The translations under genes were made by a program, and so were the position numbers. 35,018 nt of DNA, taken from a virus. The number at the start of each line of letters is the position of its first letter. Position 1 is the first letter of the stretch. The stretch covers positions 1 to 35,018 of IMG/VR virus record IMGVR_UViG_3300022686_000079, one strand, 5' to 3'. Below are positions 3,799-29,493 of this stretch, in pieces. The notes under the pieces were generated by a model. It searched no databases and was not told the origin of the DNA. It saw nothing but the letters and a program-made list of their open reading frames with translations.

Positions 3799-4677
3799 TT
3801 AACATTTAACAACAGAAGTAAGCCATTTTACTATAGGCTCTTTTCTGTATGGTTCCAAATCCATTACCTTTAGTTCGGGAATAGATTTATAATCAATCGT
3901 GCCTTTACATACGCTCTTCAGAAGCTTAACGCCTCCCCCGATGGCGCTAACTCCTCCTGAGCATTCAATAAGAGCTTCTTTTACTTTACTTTCTTCCTCT
4001 TGTAAAGTTTTCAGCTCTTGTTTCTTCTCTTTAACGCGCTCGTTAACGGAAATAAACTGCTTAGCTAGTTCGTTCCACTCCGCTCCCTCTTGAGTGGTAA
4101 CGTCTTTGCTTCCGAGCGGTGGTGCAGTAAAGTTTCGAACGTAATTAATGAAGTTCCCCTCTTCCTCAATAATCCGTTCGATCATTTCCTTATCGGGAGA
4201 AACTTCAACTAACTTGAAGTCACCATTTCGATAAGAAAAGTAGTGTAGCATTTCGATATTATATAATGCAAGCCCTACTGCGAGCTGGTGCTGCAGCTGC
4301 GGAATATATTTTTCTGGAACTAAGCCTTTATGGGCGAGCTCGTGATCCGCAGGATTAGCCGTTTTGATCTCAACAATCACGCTCTGCATCGGATCTATTC
4401 CGTCCAGGCTAGCCATCATGTAGTCTATTTCGGGATGAAACACGACTTGCGGTGAAATTGGTGTACCCGTATGCTTAGTGTAAGCATCGCGTGCCACGGG
4501 CTCAAGATCGTGACCACGTTGCATGTGCGGAAGTGTGGGGCTCTCACGAATCCCCAACTTTTCTTCCCATAGCTGGTAAGGTGTCTTATACGGGCTAACC
4601 CCTAGGATGATAGGCGCATCACTCGCACCTATCATCTTTTTTCTTAATTCCTTCCATTCTTCTGTATTTTGCTTCAT
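3799..4677 (-). CDS. YqaJ-type phage recombination exonuclease
   Basis: 292 residues. N-terminal MKQNTEEWKELRKKMIGASD is the standard YqaJ opening (W8, R12, GAS at 17-19). Then RGHDLEP (54-60) and the PD-(D/E)xK site: D92 in ASLDG, E103 and K105 in VEIKTA, and the QLQHQ helix at 127-131. A coiled-coil C-terminal half follows (about 195-240). The family digests double-stranded ends 5' to 3' to give the 3' single strand used in annealing. Its start shares one base with the ERF gene stop, matching the usual exonuclease/annealing-protein pair. Confidence 0.92.
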   Translation of the reverse strand: MKQNTEEWKELRKKMIGASDAPIILGVSPYKTPYQLWEEKLGIRESPTLPHMQRGHDLEPVARDAYTKHTGTPISPQVVFHPEIDYMMASLDGIDPMQSVIVEIKTANPADHELAHKGLVPEKYIPQLQHQLAVGLALYNIEMLHYFSYRNGDFKLVEVSPDKEMIERIIEEEGNFINYVRNFTAPPLGSKDVTTQEGAEWNELAKQFISVNERVKEKKQELKTLQEEESKVKEALIECSGGVSAIGGGVKLLKSVCKGTIDYKSIPELKVMDLEPYRKEPIVKWLTSVVKC

Positions 4678-5539: not shown

Positions 5540-5822
5540 CTTCCAAAATTATTTCCTTCCAATTGTTCACCGTTGCTTCCAATAACTTATCATTGAAAAG
5601 TGGGAAAAAAGTTAACATCATAGCTTGAGGAGAAAAGTTCAAAAGGTGAATACGTACAATATCTACCCAGATAGCAAAGTCCTTTGCACTGATTTTATCA
5701 AGCATTAAGCTTTCAATAATACGGACTTTATCCTTAGGTGTAGCACTCACGTACAAGTCTAATAGTTCAGTAGCGGATGTAACCTCTTCATCACTAAGAA
5801 TGTTTTCTATGTTGTTTTCCAT
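5523..5822 (-). CDS. Small early protein, unknown
   Basis: 99 residues, acidic and helical, no motif recognised. Overlaps both neighbours (17 nt downstream, 29 nt upstream), typical of a tightly packed early operon. Shares the KDKVR..W..FFPLF pattern with the next gene. Confidence 0.6.
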   Translation of the reverse strand: MENNIENILSDEEVTSATELLDLYVSATPKDKVRIIESLMLDKISAKDFAIWVDIVRIHLLNFSPQAMMLTFFPLFNDKLLEATVNNWKEIILEGEDHE

Positions 5823-6024
5823 CTACAACCTCCTTGACAACGGTTTTGATTAATTTGTTTGCAAATTCAGCAAGTGTATGAGCTTTAGCAAGCTCATAAT
5901 ATGCAGAGTCTACCAGATCTAATTCAAATAAAGCTTGTGCTTGTTCATAATACTCATCACTTTTTTTCTGAGTGTCTAAAACAAATATTTCTATATCTTT
6001 TAGTAAATTCTGTTTGTCTATCAT
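5794..6024 (-). CDS. Small helical early protein, unknown
   Basis: 76 residues, almost wholly predicted helix (EYYEQAQALFELDLVDSAYY, AHTLAEFANKLIKTVVKEV). Preceded by GAGGT as SD. In the 42 nt before it, a hairpin TGCATG/CATGCA (about 6043-6060) stands in the place where other genes of this operon have the GGGGC hairpin. Function unknown. Confidence 0.55.
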   Translation of the reverse strand: MIDKQNLLKDIEIFVLDTQKKSDEYYEQAQALFELDLVDSAYYELAKAHTLAEFANKLIKTVVKEVVDGKQHRKHS

Positions 6025-9148: not shown

Positions 9149-9301
9149 TTAGGCTTGCGTCAAGATAAAGGCGGAGATACCGCCGTCATAATACATATCA
9201 ATTGCTTTTTCAATCTCAAGCTCGGTTGCGTCGTAAATCTCATCAACCTCGTCCTCGAAAATTTCACTTAACCATATTCTTGCTTGTGCATAATCTAACA
9301 T
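9149..9301 (-). CDS. Small acidic protein, unknown
   Basis: 50 residues. ATG at 9301 with GGAG 5 nt upstream; the frame ends at TAA 9149. MLDYAQARIWLSEIFEDEVDEIYDA... is acidic and helical with a short YYDGGISAF tail. It stands immediately downstream of two operator repeats and a TATAAT, which suggests tight repression. Function not recognised; a small antirepressor or control peptide is possible. Confidence 0.55.
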   Translation of the reverse strand: MLDYAQARIWLSEIFEDEVDEIYDATELEIEKAIDMYYDGGISAFILTQA

Positions 9302-9336
9302 ATAATCTCCATGTTATAGGTATATGATATCATATC

Positions 9337-9366
9337 GTGACATTTACCGCAAGCAGGAATAGTCAC
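9337..9366. promoter_or_regulatory. Operator repeat 1
   Basis: A 30-bp element beginning GTGACATTTACCG and ending ATAGTCAC; GTGAC/GTCAC form an inverted repeat. It is repeated 44 bp further on. Confidence 0.6.
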
Positions 9367-9380
9367 TTATCTCAACTTCA

Positions 9381-9410
9381 GTGACATTTACCGTATGCGG
9401 ATATAGTCAC
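9381..9410. promoter_or_regulatory. Operator repeat 2
   Basis: Same 30-bp layout as repeat 1: GTGACATTTACCG, then TATGCGG, then ATATAGTCAC, with inner near-palindrome CCGTATGCGG. A perfect -10 (TATAAT) for leftward transcription lies at 9413-9418, next to its edge. Confidence 0.6.
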
Positions 9411-9412
9411 AC

Positions 9413-9418
9413 ATTATA
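9413..9418 (-). promoter_or_regulatory. -10 box TATAAT, weak promoter toward the 50-aa gene
   Basis: TATAAT on the minus strand with no convincing -35 at 16-18 bp. An activator may be needed, or initiation may be weak. Confidence 0.35.
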
Positions 9419-9584
9419 CTATCAAATTAAAAATAACAGATTTATAAATCACGGGTAGGCCCAGGGGGGCTGAGAAAGCAGGGTTTAAATATTAGGTTCC
9501 ATATTAGTTTCAGTGTTCATAACCCCAAAACCTCCCCAAAAAAATAATTTAAACAATACCAAACTTCCACAACCAAAGTAAATT
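9419..9584. other. Gene-poor stretch with a GC-rich patch and an 11-codon reading frame
   Basis: The patch at about 9452-9472 is nearly all G/C in otherwise AT-rich DNA. On the minus strand an ATG at 9520 has a strong SD (GGGGAGG, about 10 nt upstream) but opens only an 11-codon frame (stop 9485). It could be a leader peptide or the remains of a gene. No other gene seen. Confidence 0.3.
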
Positions 9585-9932
9585 CTATCTTAATTTTTCG
9601 AGAACATCAAAATCTATTTCTTTCCATTTGGTTACACCAACGTAAGTAGTTTCGCCGAAGTGATGTCTGCCAGGAGGTTTCCAAATTTCTTTTACAGAAT
9701 ATTCGGCAATAAGCGAATCTTTAGGATCGGATGGTATATGACATTTTATTTTATGTATGGTAGTATCAATAATAAATTCTGCGATATACCAAGCAGGATG
9801 ATCTTCTATGGTGTAAGTTGTTTCACATTTTCCTGAACCTGCATAAGTAGTATGTGTTTCCATGAGGTAGCCAAAGCATTCTATAATTTGTTTATGATAT
9901 GGTAAATCTTTTGTAACGCAAATTTCTTTCAT
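9585..9932 (-). CDS. Unknown protein
   Basis: 115 residues from ATG 9932. The frame extends to 9986, but 9932 has AAGGT 8 nt upstream and the upstream part overlaps the promoter region. Mixed alpha/beta; features include TTYAGSGKCETTYTIEDHPAW and KPPGRHHFGETTYVGVTKW. No family recognised. It is divergent from the 10053 regulator with its own strong promoter. It might be an accessory or anti-host protein, but nothing in the sequence decides this. Confidence 0.6.
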   Translation of the reverse strand: MKEICVTKDLPYHKQIIECFGYLMETHTTYAGSGKCETTYTIEDHPAWYIAEFIIDTTIHKIKCHIPSDPKDSLIAEYSVKEIWKPPGRHHFGETTYVGVTKWKEIDFDVLEKLR

Positions 9933-9974
9933 AATTAAACCTTTTTTTCTTTCATTCCAGTGCAATCGACTAGT

Positions 9975-10003
9975 ATTATACTGCATTTATTAATATTTTT
10001 CCA
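9975..10003 (-). promoter_or_regulatory. Promoter of the 9585-9932 gene
   Basis: -35 TGGAAA (9998-10003), 17-bp spacer, -10 TATAAT (9975-9980). The -10 lies inside the palindrome AGTAT-T-ATACT. Confidence 0.65.
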
Positions 10004-10016
10004 TATTTATTTCATA

Positions 10017-10052
10017 TTGAAAATATACCAATTTTAGGTATATACTCTAAGT
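10017..10052 (+). promoter_or_regulatory. Promoter and operator of the 10053 regulator; leaderless mRNA
   Basis: -35 TTGAAA (10017-10022), 18-bp spacer, -10 TATACT (10041-10046). The ATG begins 7 nt after the -10, where transcription should start, so the mRNA is probably leaderless. ATATACC and GGTATAT form an inverted repeat (about 10023-10045) between and over the boxes, a likely autoregulatory operator. Confidence 0.6.
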
Positions 10053-10301
10053 ATGGATGACCTAAATGTAATTAACTTTTATGACTTTTACGAAGACTGT
10101 TACGGTGATTTTCCGATGTGGGCTGTATACCTGCGTGGTTTACGATACCGGGAAGGTCTGACCCAAGTTCAACTAGCGGAACAGCTTGGTATTAAACAAA
10201 GTCATATCAGTGAAATGGAGAATGGAAAAAGAACAATCGGGAAAAAAATCGCTAAAAGATTGGAAAATATATTTGGTACCGACTATCGATTGTTCTTGTA
10301 G
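10053..10301 (+). CDS. XRE/CI-type HTH repressor (single domain)
   Basis: 82 residues. HTH_3 domain at about 27-78: LRGLRYREGLTQVQLAEQLG, IKQSHISEMENGKRTIGKKIAKRL. The N-terminal 26 residues are acidic and aromatic. There is no S24 peptidase domain, so it is not cleaved like lambda CI. Its leaderless transcript and palindromic operator resemble lambda cI transcribed from PRM. It resembles solitary antitoxin-type regulators as well, but the neighbouring divergent gene shows no toxin motif I know. Confidence 0.75.
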   Translation: MDDLNVINFYDFYEDCYGDFPMWAVYLRGLRYREGLTQVQLAEQLGIKQSHISEMENGKRTIGKKIAKRLENIFGTDYRLFL

Positions 10302-10327
10302 TATTTAAAATATTATAGATTAAAAAA

Positions 10328-10522
10328 TCAGGATTTTTCGACCACATTTTTTAAAACATATTCCATTTGTTCTGAAGTCAAAAAAGATTCTGAACAAGAA
10401 ATACAAATATGAGCTTTTACGGTAAAAGTTGATTCTTTTCCATTGATAATTGTTTTGTAAGTAACATTTAATGTTTTTGTTGGATGATCGCACCAACAGC
10501 AATATGTTTTATAACTTTTTAT
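10328..10522 (-). CDS. YgiT/MqsA-type zinc-finger protein with ATA in the start position
   Basis: 64 residues. CCWC at 8-11 and CISC at 40-43 frame KTLNVTYKTIINGKESTFTVKAHI; this is the two-CxxC layout of YgiT-type zinc fingers, without the HTH found in full MqsA. No ATG, GTG or TTG lies upstream in frame before a stop. ATA at 10522 stands exactly where a start is expected: AAAAAGGA lies 6 nt upstream, and the context (AGGactgattATAAAAAG) parallels the 9932 start (AGGtttaattATGAAAG). Either ATA is the start or the gene has lost its ATG. It ends in a short AT hairpin facing the 10053 gene. Confidence 0.5.
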   Translation of the reverse strand: MKSYKTYCCWCDHPTKTLNVTYKTIINGKESTFTVKAHICISCSESFLTSEQMEYVLKNVVEKS

Positions 10523-10546
10523 AATCAGTCCTTTTTGAATTCATTC

Positions 10547-10825
10547 TTATCCATTCCTCTCCTGTCCGCTCCTCTCCTGCCCATTCCAGTGCATAGGATC
10601 TTCATTATCATTTTTTTCTTTCTTTGATTTGCAATCAAGCCAATATCTTAAACAACTTAACCCACAAAAGTGATGCTTTCTTTCCAACATAGGCTTCATT
10701 AAAATATCAACTGTCAATTGTTCTATGTTTGGTATTTTCTCACAATCAAGGACAACCCTCCAAGAATCACAACAGTATGTATCAGCTAAGTCTTTTTTAC
10801 ATGAGTCGCAGAAAATTTTTTTTAT
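10547..10825 (-). CDS. Cysteine-rich protein with ATA in the start position
   Basis: 92 residues. Cysteine groups CDSC (6-9), CC (18-19) and CGLSC (54-58) suggest a zinc-binding protein; no named family recognised. No ATG/GTG/TTG is available at the N-terminus. ATA at 10825 has AAGG 7 nt upstream and overlaps the stop of the preceding gene as ATAA, the way ATGA overlaps work. The last 15 residues (HWNGQERSGQERNG) are encoded by a pentamer array. ATA initiation is inferred. Confidence 0.5.
   Translation of the reverse strand: MKKIFCDSCKKDLADTYCCDSWRVVLDCEKIPNIEQLTVDILMKPMLERKHHFCGLSCLRYWLDCKSKKEKNDNEDPMHWNGQERSGQERNG
10551..10590. repeat. CCNNT pentamer array D (8 units)
   Basis: Eight in-register pentamers such as CCATT, CCTCT, CCTGT, CCGCT; one ends in C. 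In the leftward mRNA they read ANNGG. This array encodes the C-terminus of the upstream gene and lies before the YgiT-like gene. Confidence 0.85.
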
Positions 10826-10917
10826 TGTGATGCCTTTTTTTTAATTAATTCATCAATTCTTATCCAATATTTTCCTTTTTTCGGAAGTCTATCGTAAACG
10901 CTAATCCAATTAGCCAT
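10822..10917 (-). CDS. Truncated DUF551-type protein
   Basis: 31 residues. MANWISVYDRLPKKGKYW carries the N-terminal signature of DUF551 (WISV.DRLP), but the protein stops where the family normally continues for some 40 more residues to a HWMP-type end. The ATG lies inside an AATGG pentamer of array C. The downstream gene overlaps its stop. It may be a remnant or a functional small form. Confidence 0.55.
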   Translation of the reverse strand: MANWISVYDRLPKKGKYWIRIDELIKKKASQ

Positions 10918-10983
10918 TCCATTCCATTCCATGCCTCTCCCATCCCCTCCTGTCCATTCCCCTCCAGTCCTCTCCATTCCACT
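10914..10983. repeat. CCNNT pentamer array C (14 units)
   Basis: Fourteen pentamers in one register; 13 fit CCNNT exactly (CCATT, CCTCT, CCCAT, CCCCT, CCTGT, CCAGT, CCACT) and one ends in G (CCATG). It lies between the membrane-protein gene (stop at 11011) and the DUF551 remnant, whose ATG it supplies. Confidence 0.9.
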
Positions 10984-11010
10984 TAAGTAAAGGTTTCCTT
11001 TTGTTACATC

Positions 11011-11346
11011 TTACCGTTGTATATGTACGGGATATGATATAGGGTGTATCTTGTTCTCTGATTTGTATAGTTTTTTGATCAAGAATAATTCTCGGTAGTG
11101 CTTGGCTTGATACGCATTTGACGCACAGTCAAGTCCCACTAGTAGAAAAACAGTTCCGAGTAGCCATCCTAAAAGTGTCCTGCCAAGATATGTTTTGTAC
11201 CCAATACTATTATTTTCTAAGTGAAACATAAAGCAACCAAATGCAATAAGTGCTAATCCTATTCCTATGCAGTAAGGTGCCATCTCCCCAGATATCTGAG
11301 CGTTTTGCAATGCCTGCTCTGCTGCCTTCTCGTATAAATCGCTCAC
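11011..11346 (-). CDS. Small membrane protein, two transmembrane segments
   Basis: 111 residues from GTG 11346. Transmembrane segments at about 23-41 (MAPYCIGIGLALIAFGCFMF) and 55-73 (LGRTLLGWLLGTVFLLVGL), then a basic C-terminal tail. The GTG overlaps the stop of a 13-codon frame (11387-11346, MTKDKRNTRRSAK), suggesting translational coupling since the GTG itself has little SD. Two segments and small size would fit a holin, but the operon position among non-lytic genes does not support that. Function unknown. Confidence 0.55.
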   Translation of the reverse strand: MSDLYEKAAEQALQNAQISGEMAPYCIGIGLALIAFGCFMFHLENNSIGYKTYLGRTLLGWLLGTVFLLVGLDCASNAYQAKHYRELFLIKKLYKSENKIHPISYPVHIQR

Positions 11347-11387
11347 TACTTTGCCGATCGTCTAGTATTACGTTTATCCTTAGTCAT
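11346..11387 (-). CDS. 13-codon reading frame coupled to the membrane protein
   Basis: ATG at 11387, stop TAG sharing a base with the GTG of the next gene. Encodes a very basic peptide. The evidence is only its position; it may be a leader that brings ribosomes to the weak GTG start. Confidence 0.25.
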   Translation of the reverse strand: MTKDKRNTRRSAK

Positions 11388-11417
11388 GTCTGCTCATTAA
11401 TTATTCCTTTAAAAAAA

Positions 11418-11512
11418 CCATTCCATTCCACTCCTTTCCTCTCCGATCCAGTCCCTTCCCTTCCAGTCCCTTCCATTCCCATCCACTCCTATCCTATCCT
11501 ATCCTATCCAGT
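11418..11512. repeat. CCNNT pentamer array B (19 units)
   Basis: Nineteen units in register, including CCGAT, CCAGT, CCCTT and a run of four CCTAT. It fills the gap between the end of the 11524 gene and the membrane-protein gene. Confidence 0.9.
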
Positions 11513-11523
11513 AAAAAAATAAG

Positions 11524-12114
11524 CTACTCAAACTCAATATCAATAACTTCAAAACGTCCATATCCAAGGGTTCGCATTTCTGCTATCCCTTGCAACTTTC
11601 CGCAATCTTCAACGATTTTTTTAATGTGTTGCTTTGAGATCAAAGTATCGTCGACTAGTAATTCAAATTCAGTCTCCCAGCCTGGTGAGCAAGCTACTCT
11701 GTAGCGTACATTACGCCCTTTCGTATTAGGGTTAGCTACCATTCGTACGTCGATGTAAACGGGTAAAGATGAATCGATAGGGACGTCCTGATCTGAAATA
11801 TTTTCCCAGTCGTCAAACATTTTGCGATTAAGGTAAGCTTTCGATGTTAGTACGTTAACTGCCGAAATCCATGTTTTTTGTATCGAACCACGGCCTACTT
11901 TTGTATGCACTGCAGCATTCTTTAAAGCAGCAAAAATGTAATTGTCGGGTATGTATAATTTTCCGTTGTCGTGAAAATACGAGTTTCTCCACTCGTCTGG
12001 ATTATTCCCTGAGCTGCCAGATTTTGGTTTCGATAAAGCCGTAAGTGCTTCAATGTTGAATTTATGAAAAACTAGTGGTTTAATACCTTTAATTTTAATT
12101 TTCGCTGTTAACAT
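11524..12114 (-). CDS. Conserved phage protein of the KGR/GRF type, possibly RAMP-like fold
   Basis: 196 residues. The order KIKGIKPLVFHKF (7-19), LYIPDNYIFAALKNAA, RGSIQKTW, NTKGRNVRYR, GKLQGIAEMRTLGYGRFEV (near the end) is that of a conserved protein I associate with many phages and mobile elements, usually annotated as hypothetical. The glycine-rich end and two-fold layout recall RAMP (Cas5/6/7-like) ferredoxin folds; this is an impression, not a match. ATG 12114 has AAAGGAT as SD. Flanked on both sides by pentamer arrays. Confidence 0.6.
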   Translation of the reverse strand: MLTAKIKIKGIKPLVFHKFNIEALTALSKPKSGSSGNNPDEWRNSYFHDNGKLYIPDNYIFAALKNAAVHTKVGRGSIQKTWISAVNVLTSKAYLNRKMFDDWENISDQDVPIDSSLPVYIDVRMVANPNTKGRNVRYRVACSPGWETEFELLVDDTLISKQHIKKIVEDCGKLQGIAEMRTLGYGRFEVIDIEFE

Positions 12115-12140
12115 AAGATATCCTTTTTTTGTTTAAATTT

Positions 12141-12265
12141 CCGTTCCATTCCTCTCCTGTCCAATCCTCTCGGCTCCATACCTCTCCATTCCTGTCCAAT
12201 TCTCTCCATTCCCATCCCCTCCTTTCCTGTCCTTTCCATTCCCCTCCTTTCCTTTTCTATCCATG
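12141..12265. repeat. CCNNT pentamer array A (25 units)
   Basis: Twenty-five pentamers in one register; 21 fit CCNNT exactly and the exceptions (CGGCT, CCATA, TCTCT or TCTAT, CCATG) differ at a single conserved position. It contains the stop codon of the 12532 gene and precedes the 12114 gene. Confidence 0.9.
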
Positions 12266-12532
12266 TTGAAAATTCCACAAGATAGTTTCGTGGTTTCGAA
12301 AGTTTTCTTGGTAAAAAACCATAGTTGAAGCGTAATAGTTGATGATGTCCTGTTTACGGTAAAGAAGCTTGCCTTCAACGTAAAACTTAGGGGGGGCATA
12401 TCCCCAAGATTCTGCCGTATTCAAATCTTTTTTGTTATGAAAAATCCCTAGAATAAGCAAATCTTTCTTAGATAAAAATTGCTGCCTAGCATAGCGATCT
12501 TCTAGAAGATTTACAAAATCATGAATTTTCAT
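12257..12532 (-). CDS. Excisionase/AlpA-like winged-helix DNA-binding protein
   Basis: 91 residues from ATG 12532 (a longer frame to 12550 runs through the -10 box). FLSKKDLLILGIFHNKKDLNTAESWG, then KFYVEGKLLYRKQDIINYY is the layout of MerR/excisionase-like winged helices (target recognition helix, then wing with R-K-D). The ATG is 7 nt after a -10, so the mRNA is probably leaderless. It is the first gene of the leftward operon and the natural candidate to bind the palindrome in its own promoter. Confidence 0.65.
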   Translation of the reverse strand: MKIHDFVNLLEDRYARQQFLSKKDLLILGIFHNKKDLNTAESWGYAPPKFYVEGKLLYRKQDIINYYASTMVFYQENFRNHETILWNFQHG

Positions 12533-12539
12533 ATCGGTG

Positions 12540-12603
12540 ATGATATACACCCGAAAAATTTATGTCAAGCCACTTGACATTTTATATTCGGAATGCATAT
12601 AAT
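12540..12603. promoter_or_regulatory. Divergent promoters sharing a palindromic operator
   Basis: Perfect inverted repeat TGTCAAG-CCA-CTTGACA at 12563-12579. Its two arms each contain TTGACA on opposite strands. Rightward: TTGACA (12574-12579), 18 bp, TATAAT (12598-12603). Leftward: TTGACA (12563-12568), 17 bp, TATCAT (12540-12545). One bound dimer would cover both -35 boxes and shut both operons. Confidence 0.85.
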
Positions 12604-12635
12604 AGTCGTTTTCAAATACAAACTAGGAGTTATTT

Positions 12636-13649
12636 ATGAAATTTATCATTTTAAACCAAAACCATAACACTGGAGATACTATGCCTATTAAAAATTTGAA
12701 TATAGAAGAAAATTACACAGTTGTGAGCACCGAATTTTGTCAGGACACCCGATTAACTCCGCAAACCAAAGGGATGTTAATTGACCTGTTTTCTCGTCCC
12801 GAAGACTGGGATATCAACATCCAAGGACTCATGCAGATGACTCACGGGATAGGGCGGGTAAAGCTCTACAAGAGCCTCAAACAGGCAGTGAAGTGTGGAT
12901 ACATGGTGCGTCTGCCGCAAAGTCGGAACGTAAAGCACCATTTCGCCAAAACGACCTGGATTGCGTGTCATGTTCCATTTTTGGCCGAAGAGCTGGACGA
13001 TGAAACGGTCGAAAAAATGTTCAACAACCAGATTTCGAACGAAGAATTTGACAAAATTTACAACCTCCAAATTACCAAAAAAGGTAATGCTGAAAATGTG
13101 GAAAAAATGTTCATAAGTGACGACAAATTGTTCAAAACTATTTTTACCATAGATCAAAAACGAATTGCGGGAATGAATAGAAATCCCGACAATAGCAAAA
13201 CCGCATGCAAAAATAGAACACAACAAAGTACTATATTAACAAAATATAATATAGAGAATAACAAATATGTTATAGGTCCTGATGTATCAGAACCGCATGC
13301 AGAAACGAACACAAAAAAGCCGCATGCAGAAAACAAACATGCGGATGAAATATCCTGGAACAAGGAGCAAAAAAAGTTTCAAAATTTGACAGATTGTAAA
13401 ATACAACTCTACAAGGAAGCTTTTCCTCGAATAAACCTGGAAAGAGAGCTTAGCGCCATGAAACTTTGGTTGACAAATAACCCCAAAAGGGCCAACAAAA
13501 AGGACTGGAACAAATTCATAACCAACTGGCTAACAAAAGCATACGACAAACAGCAACGGTATGAAGCCTATGCAGCACAGTCGGACAAAGGCAAAGTAAT
13601 GAGCATCAGAGACATCCCAAGCGTAGACTCGGAGGATCTAGGATGGTGA
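12636..13649 (+). CDS. Phage replication initiator (O-like, winged-helix N-terminus)
   Basis: 337 residues. The N-terminal domain (about 16-110) has the replication-protein pattern YTVVSTEFCQDTRLTPQTKG, LFSRPEDWDINIQGLMQMTHGI, GRVKLYKSLKQAVKCGYM. The middle is a low-complexity linker with repeated PHAE; the C-terminal part (about 250-330) is helical and may bind the helicase loader. ATG 12636 has a perfect AGGAG; an in-frame ATG at 12681 also has TGGAG and would fit relatives that start nearer the YTVVS block. Iteron-like repeats lie inside the gene. First gene of the rightward operon. Confidence 0.8.
   Translation: MKFIILNQNHNTGDTMPIKNLNIEENYTVVSTEFCQDTRLTPQTKGMLIDLFSRPEDWDINIQGLMQMTHGIGRVKLYKSLKQAVKCGYMVRLPQSRNVKHHFAKTTWIACHVPFLAEELDDETVEKMFNNQISNEEFDKIYNLQITKKGNAENVEKMFISDDKLFKTIFTIDQKRIAGMNRNPDNSKTACKNRTQQSTILTKYNIENNKYVIGPDVSEPHAETNTKKPHAENKHADEISWNKEQKKFQNLTDCKIQLYKEAFPRINLERELSAMKLWLTNNPKRANKKDWNKFITNWLTKAYDKQQRYEAYAAQSDKGKVMSIRDIPSVDSEDLGW
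13201..13344. other. Probable replication origin inside the initiator gene
   Basis: CCGCATGC direct repeats at 13201, 13293 and 13320 (the last two extend to CCGCATGCAGAAA) and an inverted CATGCGG at 13338-13344. Between the first and second lies a strongly AT-rich stretch (about 13216-13275) suited to unwinding. Iterons plus AT-rich DNA within the initiator gene is the arrangement of lambda ori in O. Confidence 0.6.
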
Positions 13650-22592: not shown

Positions 22593-23537
22593 ATGTCAAA
22601 CATTACAACAGTTGCTGTCTTGCCACCAGCGGTAAGGGAATACTACGATCGACTGCTTTTGATGACAGCCTATCCAAGGCTTGTACATACAAAGTTTGCT
22701 CAAAAAAGAGTACTTCCAGAAAAAATGGGAGATACCATTGTTTTCCGCCGCTATGCAAGATTAGCTACAGTACCCATTCCTTTACAGGATGGTATTACTC
22801 CTCCGGGAGCACCATTATCGGTATCCGATATCAAAGCACGCGTTGATTTCTACGGAAATTTCGTAACGATCACGAATCAAGTCGAATTGACTGTTGAAGA
22901 TCGTGTGCTGAACGAAGCTTCCAGACTTCTAGCGCAAAATTTAGCTCAAACTATGGACGAGGTAACACGTGATGTGCTCGCCTCCACCATGAGCGTTCTG
23001 CAGGCCGAAAACGGAGTTAACGGTAATACTCCTACAGAGCTAACAAAGGCAGATATTGATATTGCCGTACAAACATTGCTTGGAAATGATACCGAAATGA
23101 TCTCGGAGGTAATTGAAGGAACACTTAAATTTGGTACCGTACCAGTAAGACCTTCTTTCTTTGCATATATTGATACAGCCCTTCTAGATGATCTAGAAGC
23201 AGTATCTAACTTTGTACATACTGCAAATTACCCTTCACAACAACCTGTATTGGATGCTGAGTGGGGAACAACTGGCAACGTTAGGTGGCTATACACATCC
23301 GTAGGTAGTGTAAGTGCCGCTTCACCTGCTGTTTATAATAACTTTATCATTGGTAAAGAAGCATATGCAGTCGTTCACTTGGGATCAGAAACAGGTGAAT
23401 TCTATGTAGAGCCGCTTGGTTCTGCCGGATCGGCCGATCCTCTACACCAAAGAGGTTCTGTAGGTTGGCAGCATCCATTTGTGTCTAGAATCCTAAACGA
23501 TGCCTTCATGTTAAATCTTGAAGCTACACATTCATAG
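22593..23537 (+). CDS. Major capsid protein, N4-gp56 family
   Basis: 314 residues. PPAVREYYDRLLLMTAYPRLVHTKFAQKR, then GDTIVFRRYARL, PLQDGITPPG, GNFVTITNQVELTVEDRVLNEASRLL, HLGSETGEFYVEPLGS and QRGSVGWQHPFVSRILNDAFML follow the order seen in N4-gp56 family capsid proteins (HK97 fold). SD AGGAG. It forms the icosahedral shell. Confidence 0.92.
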   Translation: MSNITTVAVLPPAVREYYDRLLLMTAYPRLVHTKFAQKRVLPEKMGDTIVFRRYARLATVPIPLQDGITPPGAPLSVSDIKARVDFYGNFVTITNQVELTVEDRVLNEASRLLAQNLAQTMDEVTRDVLASTMSVLQAENGVNGNTPTELTKADIDIAVQTLLGNDTEMISEVIEGTLKFGTVPVRPSFFAYIDTALLDDLEAVSNFVHTANYPSQQPVLDAEWGTTGNVRWLYTSVGSVSAASPAVYNNFIIGKEAYAVVHLGSETGEFYVEPLGSAGSADPLHQRGSVGWQHPFVSRILNDAFMLNLEATHS

Positions 23538-28467: not shown

Positions 28468-29030
28468 CCATCCCAACAAACATTGTTTTTCCCCTTCATG
28501 AGGAAAAAATATCGCAAGGGAATCCAACAGATTTAGCAAAATATTTGACCGAATTGGTTTTCACTCTCCAACGAATGTATGAAGAAATAGCCCAAGCTAC
28601 TAACGGAAATATTCGAGCAGATTTTCTTGAACAAGATCGCAGGTGGACACCTACATTAAAAGATACGGGAACAGCAGCAACATTTACGTACGCCCACCAA
28701 AACGGCTGGGCTTTTAGACGCGGACTAAATGTAGATGCGTGGTTTGATATTGAATTTAGCGCTCCTTCAGTAGCTCCCACGGGAAATATGTATATAGAGC
28801 TGCCTTACAAAGTTGCGGAAACGACGCAAATGCCATTTGTAGGTGTTGCACAAACTTCAAATTTTGGTTATACATCAGGTACCTATTGTGTTGTAAATGC
28901 AATCAGCGACACATTTCGTGCAGAGATCTGGAACGTCGGAAACGGAACAGCGACTACAAATCAACTCACACCTACCTCGGGCCGTATATTTGGACATATA
29001 AGTTATATAGGACAACAAGATGAGTTCTAA
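28464..29030 (+). CDS. Tail structural protein, unknown
   Basis: 188 residues; ATG overlaps the hub stop (ATGA). The N-terminus LHEEKISQGNPTDLAKYLTELVFTLQRMYEEIAQATNG is a helical trimerisation-like region; the rest is beta-rich with SYIGQQDEF at the end. Likely a short fibre or needle-type protein of the tail tip. Confidence 0.6.
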   Translation: MTIPTNIVFPLHEEKISQGNPTDLAKYLTELVFTLQRMYEEIAQATNGNIRADFLEQDRRWTPTLKDTGTAATFTYAHQNGWAFRRGLNVDAWFDIEFSAPSVAPTGNMYIELPYKVAETTQMPFVGVAQTSNFGYTSGTYCVVNAISDTFRAEIWNVGNGTATTNQLTPTSGRIFGHISYIGQQDEF

Positions 29031-29493
29031 TATTGATGAGCTAAGATGGGTGCGTGCTTTTACACCCGATATAATCCCAAAATATTTAGTAGAACAAGTA
29101 AGAGACCGGGACTACAGCGTGGAAGATTTTTACAAATACCAGCAGTTAAATTGTATGACCAAAGAAGGAGATTCACCAAAATTGAATCCGCTTAACAATT
29201 TATGGGTGCTTGTGAATCCTGAAAACGAGGTAAAAGGATTTCTTTGGTTTGTTATAGACACGTTGGGAAAAGACATTGTAATAAATACTTTTTCAATGGA
29301 CAAAGAATATTGGGGCGGTGGAAAAGCGGTAAAAAAAGCCGCAGAATATGTAAAAGAATTTTTGAAAAAGTTACAGTTTAACAAGGTATATTGGATTACT
29401 AACTATCCAAAACATTCAGAGCGTCATGGTTTTAAACGCTCAAAAAGTATTTTAATGGAATATTCGGAAGAACCGGAGGAAAAAGATGGGTAA
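29020..29493 (+). CDS. GNAT-like acetyltransferase family protein
   Basis: 157 residues. WVLVNPENEVKGFLWFVID, IVINTFSMDKEYWGGGKAVKKAAEYVKEFLKKL and KVYWITNYPKHSERHGFKRS follow the GNAT fold: strand, acetyl-CoA pyrophosphate loop (YWGGGKA), helix, and the final HGFK turn. Proteins of this kind are common inside podovirus virion operons. Whether it acetylates anything is unknown; the loop is less canonical than R/Q-x-x-G-x-G/A. Confidence 0.7.
   Translation: MSSNIDELRWVRAFTPDIIPKYLVEQVRDRDYSVEDFYKYQQLNCMTKEGDSPKLNPLNNLWVLVNPENEVKGFLWFVIDTLGKDIVINTFSMDKEYWGGGKAVKKAAEYVKEFLKKLQFNKVYWITNYPKHSERHGFKRSKSILMEYSEEPEEKDG

Follow-up and report, generated by a model that had tools for sequence, protein, structure and literature searches.

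Two adjacent small open reading frames on the minus strand of the genome of an uncultured phage carry ATA where a start codon would be expected, which raises the question of whether their proteins are made and, if so, from which codon. The window, by which we mean the whole stretch of DNA analysed (35,018 nucleotides), is a 35-kb virus record whose portal protein shows 20-25% identity to podovirus portals. The features that bear on the question directly are:

10547..10825, minus strand: Cys-rich ORF, 92 residues from the ATA, an orphan whose last codons cross array A4
10823..10825, minus strand: proposed start codon of the Cys-rich ORF, ATA, sharing ATAA with an upstream TAA (10824-10822)
10833..10842, minus strand: Shine-Dalgarno (SD) sequence of the Cys-rich ORF, an A-run plus GG (AAAAAAAAGG), containing A_AAA_AAG at 10840-10834
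10328..10522, minus strand: second ORF ("YgiT-like" in an earlier note on this DNA), 64 residues from the ATA, an orphan with two CxxC motifs
10520..10522, minus strand: proposed start codon of the second ORF, ATA
10529..10536, minus strand: SD sequence of the second ORF, AAAAAGGA, with GG 7 nt before the ATA
9585..9932, minus strand: neighbour gene used for comparison, with an ATG start and the leader layout found at the ATA frames

The ATA codons at 10825 and 10522, their SD sequences and the ATAA overlap are as the earlier note described them, and the gap from GG to start is exactly 7 nt at both, identical to that at the ATG starts 9932 and 12114. The note had likened the context of 10522 to that of the ATG start at 9932; an A-run, GG and 7 nt are indeed common to the two, and recur at the ATA of the Cys-rich frame and at the ATG gene 12114. 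The two ATA sites have SD scores of 10 and 12, where annotated starts have a median of 11.5; the SD of the Cys-rich ORF is only AAGG. Canonical starts are lacking near both N-termini, again as claimed: the first in-frame ATG, GTG or TTG is TTG 10717 in the Cys-rich ORF, 36 codons past the ATA, and TTG 10381 in the second ORF, 47 codons past it. Both frames show the pattern of an AUA-initiated gene: an ATA where the start should lie, preceded by an SD at a workable distance, and no canonical start close by in frame. Elsewhere on the minus strand, five small genes (starts 7292, 7651, 7936, 8240 and 8564) share a near-identical leader, GAAAACAACAAAAC-GAGGTANAT-ATG.

From stop to stop, the Cys-rich frame occupies 10840-10547 (97 codons) and the second frame 10540-10328 (70 codons), both on the minus strand. 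The Cys-rich frame has a fair coding signal: its 0.107 bits per codon fall within the range of coding windows and exceed 99.1% of windows read in a wrong frame. The signal is marginal for the second frame, whose score of 0.020 lies between the coding and wrong-frame distributions, at the 5th percentile of coding windows, with 4.6% of wrong-frame windows matching or beating it and with an equal score in its own +1 frame. Residue shuffles of the second frame reach its two CxxC motifs in 2.7% of cases; the Cys-rich protein has eight Cys and one CxxC only. Read from the ATA, the first Cys cluster falls 5-7 residues in (I-KKIF-CDSC; I-KSYKTY-CCWC), and a first cluster so close to the N-terminus is usual in small zinc proteins.

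No usable homologue of either protein was found in IMG/VR, INPHARED, PLSDB, GTDB genomes or 22 VIPR-phage records; a search for relatives of the neighbour genes 9585-9932 and 11011-11346 likewise returned none. The sole GTDB match, in L124, is a chance match within a 622-residue protein. The matches that the second protein made with TAL repeats among PDB sequences proved to be sums of sub-threshold repeats and were rejected, and the AlphaFold model of the Cys-rich protein alone (pLDDT 57) is too poor for use. The YgiT-like label is not borne out: against TIGR03830, the second ORF scores 14.4 bits (E 0.025), below the cutoff of 61.8 for a YgiT/MqsA-type zinc protein. The HTH gene at 10053-10301 on the plus strand and the convergent CxxC ORF at 10328-10540 on the minus strand both match this one MqsA profile weakly, the HTH gene resembling its second half (E 0.006) and the CxxC ORF its first half.

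Chance supplies such sites at a measurable rate. Taken one at a time, the two are only modestly unusual: SDs equally good as theirs accompany 9.3% and 3.0% of the window's 1,773 ATA triplets. Together they stand out more. The window contains 41 start-less ORFs (stop-to-stop frames that span 60 or more codons and have no canonical start among the first 20), and four of them have an ATA with an SD score of at least 10 within 20 codons: the two sites discussed here and two ORFs antisense to annotated ORFs, at 22946-23227 and 5650-5853. Among ORFs lying in otherwise empty gaps, surveyed in the window and in 15 further contigs that include overlapping records, only the Cys-rich frame pairs a near-cognate codon (ATA, ATT, ATC or CTG) with a good SD; the second frame is masked in this comparison by a rival TTG ORF. 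The pair of sites exceeds chance, though not overwhelmingly, and it was chosen by a reader hunting oddities.

Of the readings considered, initiation at AUA is the likeliest, with odds close to even, and its principle is already known in bacteria. As start codons, the two ATAs proposed in the earlier note fit best because the SD layout is that of the ATG neighbours, the N-terminus falls just before the Cys cluster, no canonical alternative is at hand, and AUA initiation has precedent; against this proposal stand the lack of found homologues and the marginal second frame. We put at close to an even chance the full claim that both ATAs are genuine, weak start codons of two small Cys-containing, probably zinc-binding proteins. 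The A-rich SD, with GG exactly 7 nt upstream, would position the ribosome, the initiator tRNA would decode AUA poorly, and output would then be a fraction of the ATG level. The sequence itself establishes the codons, the SDs and their spacing, the lack of canonical starts, the overlaps, and what the arrays and the vipr gene described below are; that the proteins are produced and that AUA is the codon used we infer, together with any coupling or low-expression role.

Precedent comes from Staphylococcus aureus, where infC and ccpN start at AUA and cvfC1 at AUU, all with strong SDs, which bears out the earlier note's remark that AUA initiation is known; the cvfC1 product has 61 residues and is possibly a zinc finger (PMC13009471). 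Reporters of ccpN, citZ and cvfC1 with their native AUA or AUU gave about 10% of the AUG level, up to 30% for ccpN (PMC13009471). An Escherichia coli rpoS variant with ATG changed to ATA retains RpoS production, at a level reduced by up to 5-fold (PMC12864459), although AUA by itself is put at 1% or less of the ATG level in that species (Hecht et al. 2017, as cited in PMC12864459). The S. aureus genes resemble ours in having an ATN start behind an SD, in a small, possibly zinc-binding product (cvfC1), and in the low output expected. They differ in being conserved, in having extended SDs and in being backed by ribosome profiling and reporters, whereas the genes described here are phage orphans with shorter SDs. 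By analogy, very low or conditional expression from ATA is plausible, as is a role of AUA initiation in keeping expression low, for which bacteria offer known parallels. If true, these would be phage examples of AUA initiation overlooked by gene finders limited to ATG, GTG and TTG, and small genes concealed between guide-RNA arrays that would otherwise be left unannotated.

The setting of the two genes is more informative than their ATA starts. They sit in a VIPR locus with GGA-core guide-type arrays, G-rich tracts that the earlier note had missed as such. The remaining features of the locus are:

12138..12262, minus strand: GGANN array A1, 25 units, several imperfect
11524..12114, minus strand: Vipr-family RAMP protein (PHROG 4652), 196 residues, ATG behind an A-run, GG and 7 nt
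11420..11509, minus strand: GGANN array A2, 18 units
11011..11346, minus strand: membrane-like orphan gene between A2 and A3, GTG start
10916..10980, minus strand: GGANN array A3, 13 units
10822..10917, minus strand: short upstream ORF MANWISVYDRLPKKGKYWIRIDELIKKKASQ, beginning in the last A3 unit and stopping on ATA 10825
10548..10587, minus strand: GGANN array A4, 8 units, one imperfect
10525..10554, minus strand: nine-codon ORF leaving A4, MDKNEFKKD, its stop 2 nt before ATA 10522

The minus-strand order is therefore A1, vipr, A2, the membrane-like protein, A3, the Cys-rich ORF (ATA), A4 and the second ORF (ATA), and the Cys-rich ORF stops only after crossing A4. VIPR was described in phage SUSP1 as a RAMP protein with guide RNAs (vrRNAs) of alternating GGY and NN, which bind DNA with 1-nt skips; other VIPR types may carry "a related consensus" instead of GGY (PMC13142463). 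A profile of 19 Vipr-family members, searched against 295 ORFs from the first 50 kb of phage SUSP1, hit the ORF at 28474-29061 with E 9e-21 (next best 0.69), and hhalign of the family profile against this ORF gave a probability of 99%. We infer from the surrounding GGY arrays and the single neighbour gene that SUSP1 28474-29061 is the published Vipr. The predicted structure of the 11524-12114 protein (pLDDT 77.7, low in the glycine-rich loop region) resembles Csm3/Cas7 proteins by Foldseek (E 2e-8) and aligns with Csm3 chain 6xn3_F at Z 11.0 over 154 residues (3.9 A). This predicted structure has the RAMP fold, with an RRM core and glycine-rich loop, and GxGRF is invariant near the C-terminus in the family.

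As in published VIPR, the Vipr-family gene here is phage-encoded and flanked by same-strand pentanucleotide arrays of a constant triplet and variable NN. The core, however, is GGA where the published one is GGY, and here small orphan genes, two of them seemingly ATA-started, lie between the arrays. We regard the GGA core as a variant of VIPR, not as grounds for exclusion from it. A reading of the GGA arrays as a CsrA sponge was abandoned once the link to Vipr emerged. No Rfam match was found at 9300-12700 and no tRNA in the window. Just upstream of A1, a small protein (12257-12533, minus strand) has by eye the look of an AlpA/excisionase-like DNA-binding protein and is a possible Vipr accessory; it has no match in Pfam, PHROG or NCBIfam.

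Measured between first bases, the stops of the two array-leaving ORFs lie at +1 and -5 nt relative to the ATAs, and in the second case a TGA (10527-10525) ends two nt ahead of ATA 10522. As in stop/start coupling of the ATGA or TAATG type, the junctions ATAA and TGATTATA put the start on or just past the upstream stop, but the start is ATA, not ATG, and the upstream ORFs come out of guide arrays. We reject the coincidence of stops as proof of coupling: three rarely interrupted frames exit each array, and because frames leaving GGANN arrays are rarely interrupted, a stop close to the next start is unsurprising. Termination followed by reinitiation could nevertheless contribute at the ATAs, adding to direct initiation. 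A bolder proposal, which we consider a long shot, is that the GGANN arrays, with their SD-like GGA and ATG, load ribosomes, and that the ATA genes are read mainly through reinitiation of array-exiting ORFs; guide RNA and small proteins would then be alternative outputs of a single transcript, a Vipr-bound array giving no protein and a free array giving protein. The stretch contains a third stop/start junction, TAGTG, formed where the TAG that ends a 13-codon ORF (11344-11387, minus strand) runs into the overlapping GTG start of the membrane-like gene.

Two alternatives that the earlier note left unweighed have to be set against AUA initiation. Start-codon loss, in which a former ATG mutated to ATA and the frames are recent leftovers, scarcely or not expressed, in an accessory region that changes fast, is unlikely, if still deserving of serious weight. 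Neither gene turned up in a relative, the 22 VIPR-phage records included, and both look dispensable; the Cys-rich ORF has no clean end, running across A4, and the coding score of the second frame is weak. Both ORFs are nevertheless fully open with intact SDs, and the identical change in two adjacent genes would take two events.

For the Cys-rich frame only, a -1 frameshift (or transcriptional slippage on eight A) at A_AAA_AAG could carry ribosomes out of ORF 10917-10822 into a fusion, MANWISVYDRLP...KKK-GITIKKIFCDSC..., leaving the ATA start unused, which we judge rather improbable. The heptamer at 10840-10834 is of the dnaX type and in the right frame, the Cys-rich frame being -1, and the upstream ORF, 31 codons long, scores well for codons and has a DUF551-like N-terminal motif, albeit sub-threshold (Pfam E 0.009). 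The likeness to dnaX ends with the heptamer and frame relation: no stem-loop is predicted here, downstream folding energy equalling that of shuffles (z 0.06), and no RNA structure was found at either junction. Moreover, an A-run followed by GG is a normal leader in this phage, present at genes 12114 and 9932, which require no frameshift, and the second gene carries only C_AAA_AAG.

It is improbable, too, that one or both frames are not genes but leader or tail of the guide-RNA arrays, matching ATA and SD by chance. GGANN arrays flank both frames, the +1 frame of the second ORF does as well as the ORF itself, and 3-9% of ATAs bear an SD this good; on the other side are stop-free runs of 97 and 70 codons, the coding-like composition of the Cys-rich frame, and the two CxxC motifs of the second. 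A consensus or assembly error concealing true ATG codons is very improbable, for although this is a lone metagenome-derived record, two separate substitutions would have had to fall on start codons within 35 kb where nearly all other gene starts are normal.

Downstream of the vipr gene, both the window and 16 of 18 relatives have arrays of 5-nt units with GG in phase that exceed all shuffles; a further relative, L150, has an AGTNN array, invisible to this G-based test. All 16 NN dinucleotides are present in GGA arrays pooled from seven loci. Among the Vipr-gene relatives L125-L151, the core triplet varies, being GGA, GGC/GGY or GGT, with AGT in L150 and L151, and the array core and Vipr protein may co-vary. 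A GGA-core locus in a family with a varying core helps delimit the breadth of this newly described system.

Searches for guide targets with 0, 1 and 2 skipped bases, covering 1.3 Mb, found no more matches than reversed sequence did, and IMG/VR scans with 8-unit 1-nt-skip patterns gave 7 hits for A2 and 15 for A3, none extending to the full guide; no convincing target emerged from either approach. The joined NN letters of the L127 array at 2821-2880 (AAGAAGCCATCAAAAGGC) match L129, a related VIPR phage, exactly (18/18, zero skip) at about 4606-4623; we set this aside as probably chance. In L123 (10820-11150), a threefold alternation of GGANN arrays is seen with pieces like the 3' half of a tRNA (GGTTAGTGGGTTCGACTCCCGCATCGCC), which may be a guide-RNA tail or processing signal. 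A complete tRNA-like sequence directly follows a GGANN array in L037 (6808-6957). Near-identical constant pieces lie between arrays in L142 from 3543 (TTATTATGTCCGTAAGGGCTTCAACTGAGG) and in L140 from 3603, and are candidate guide-RNA tails.
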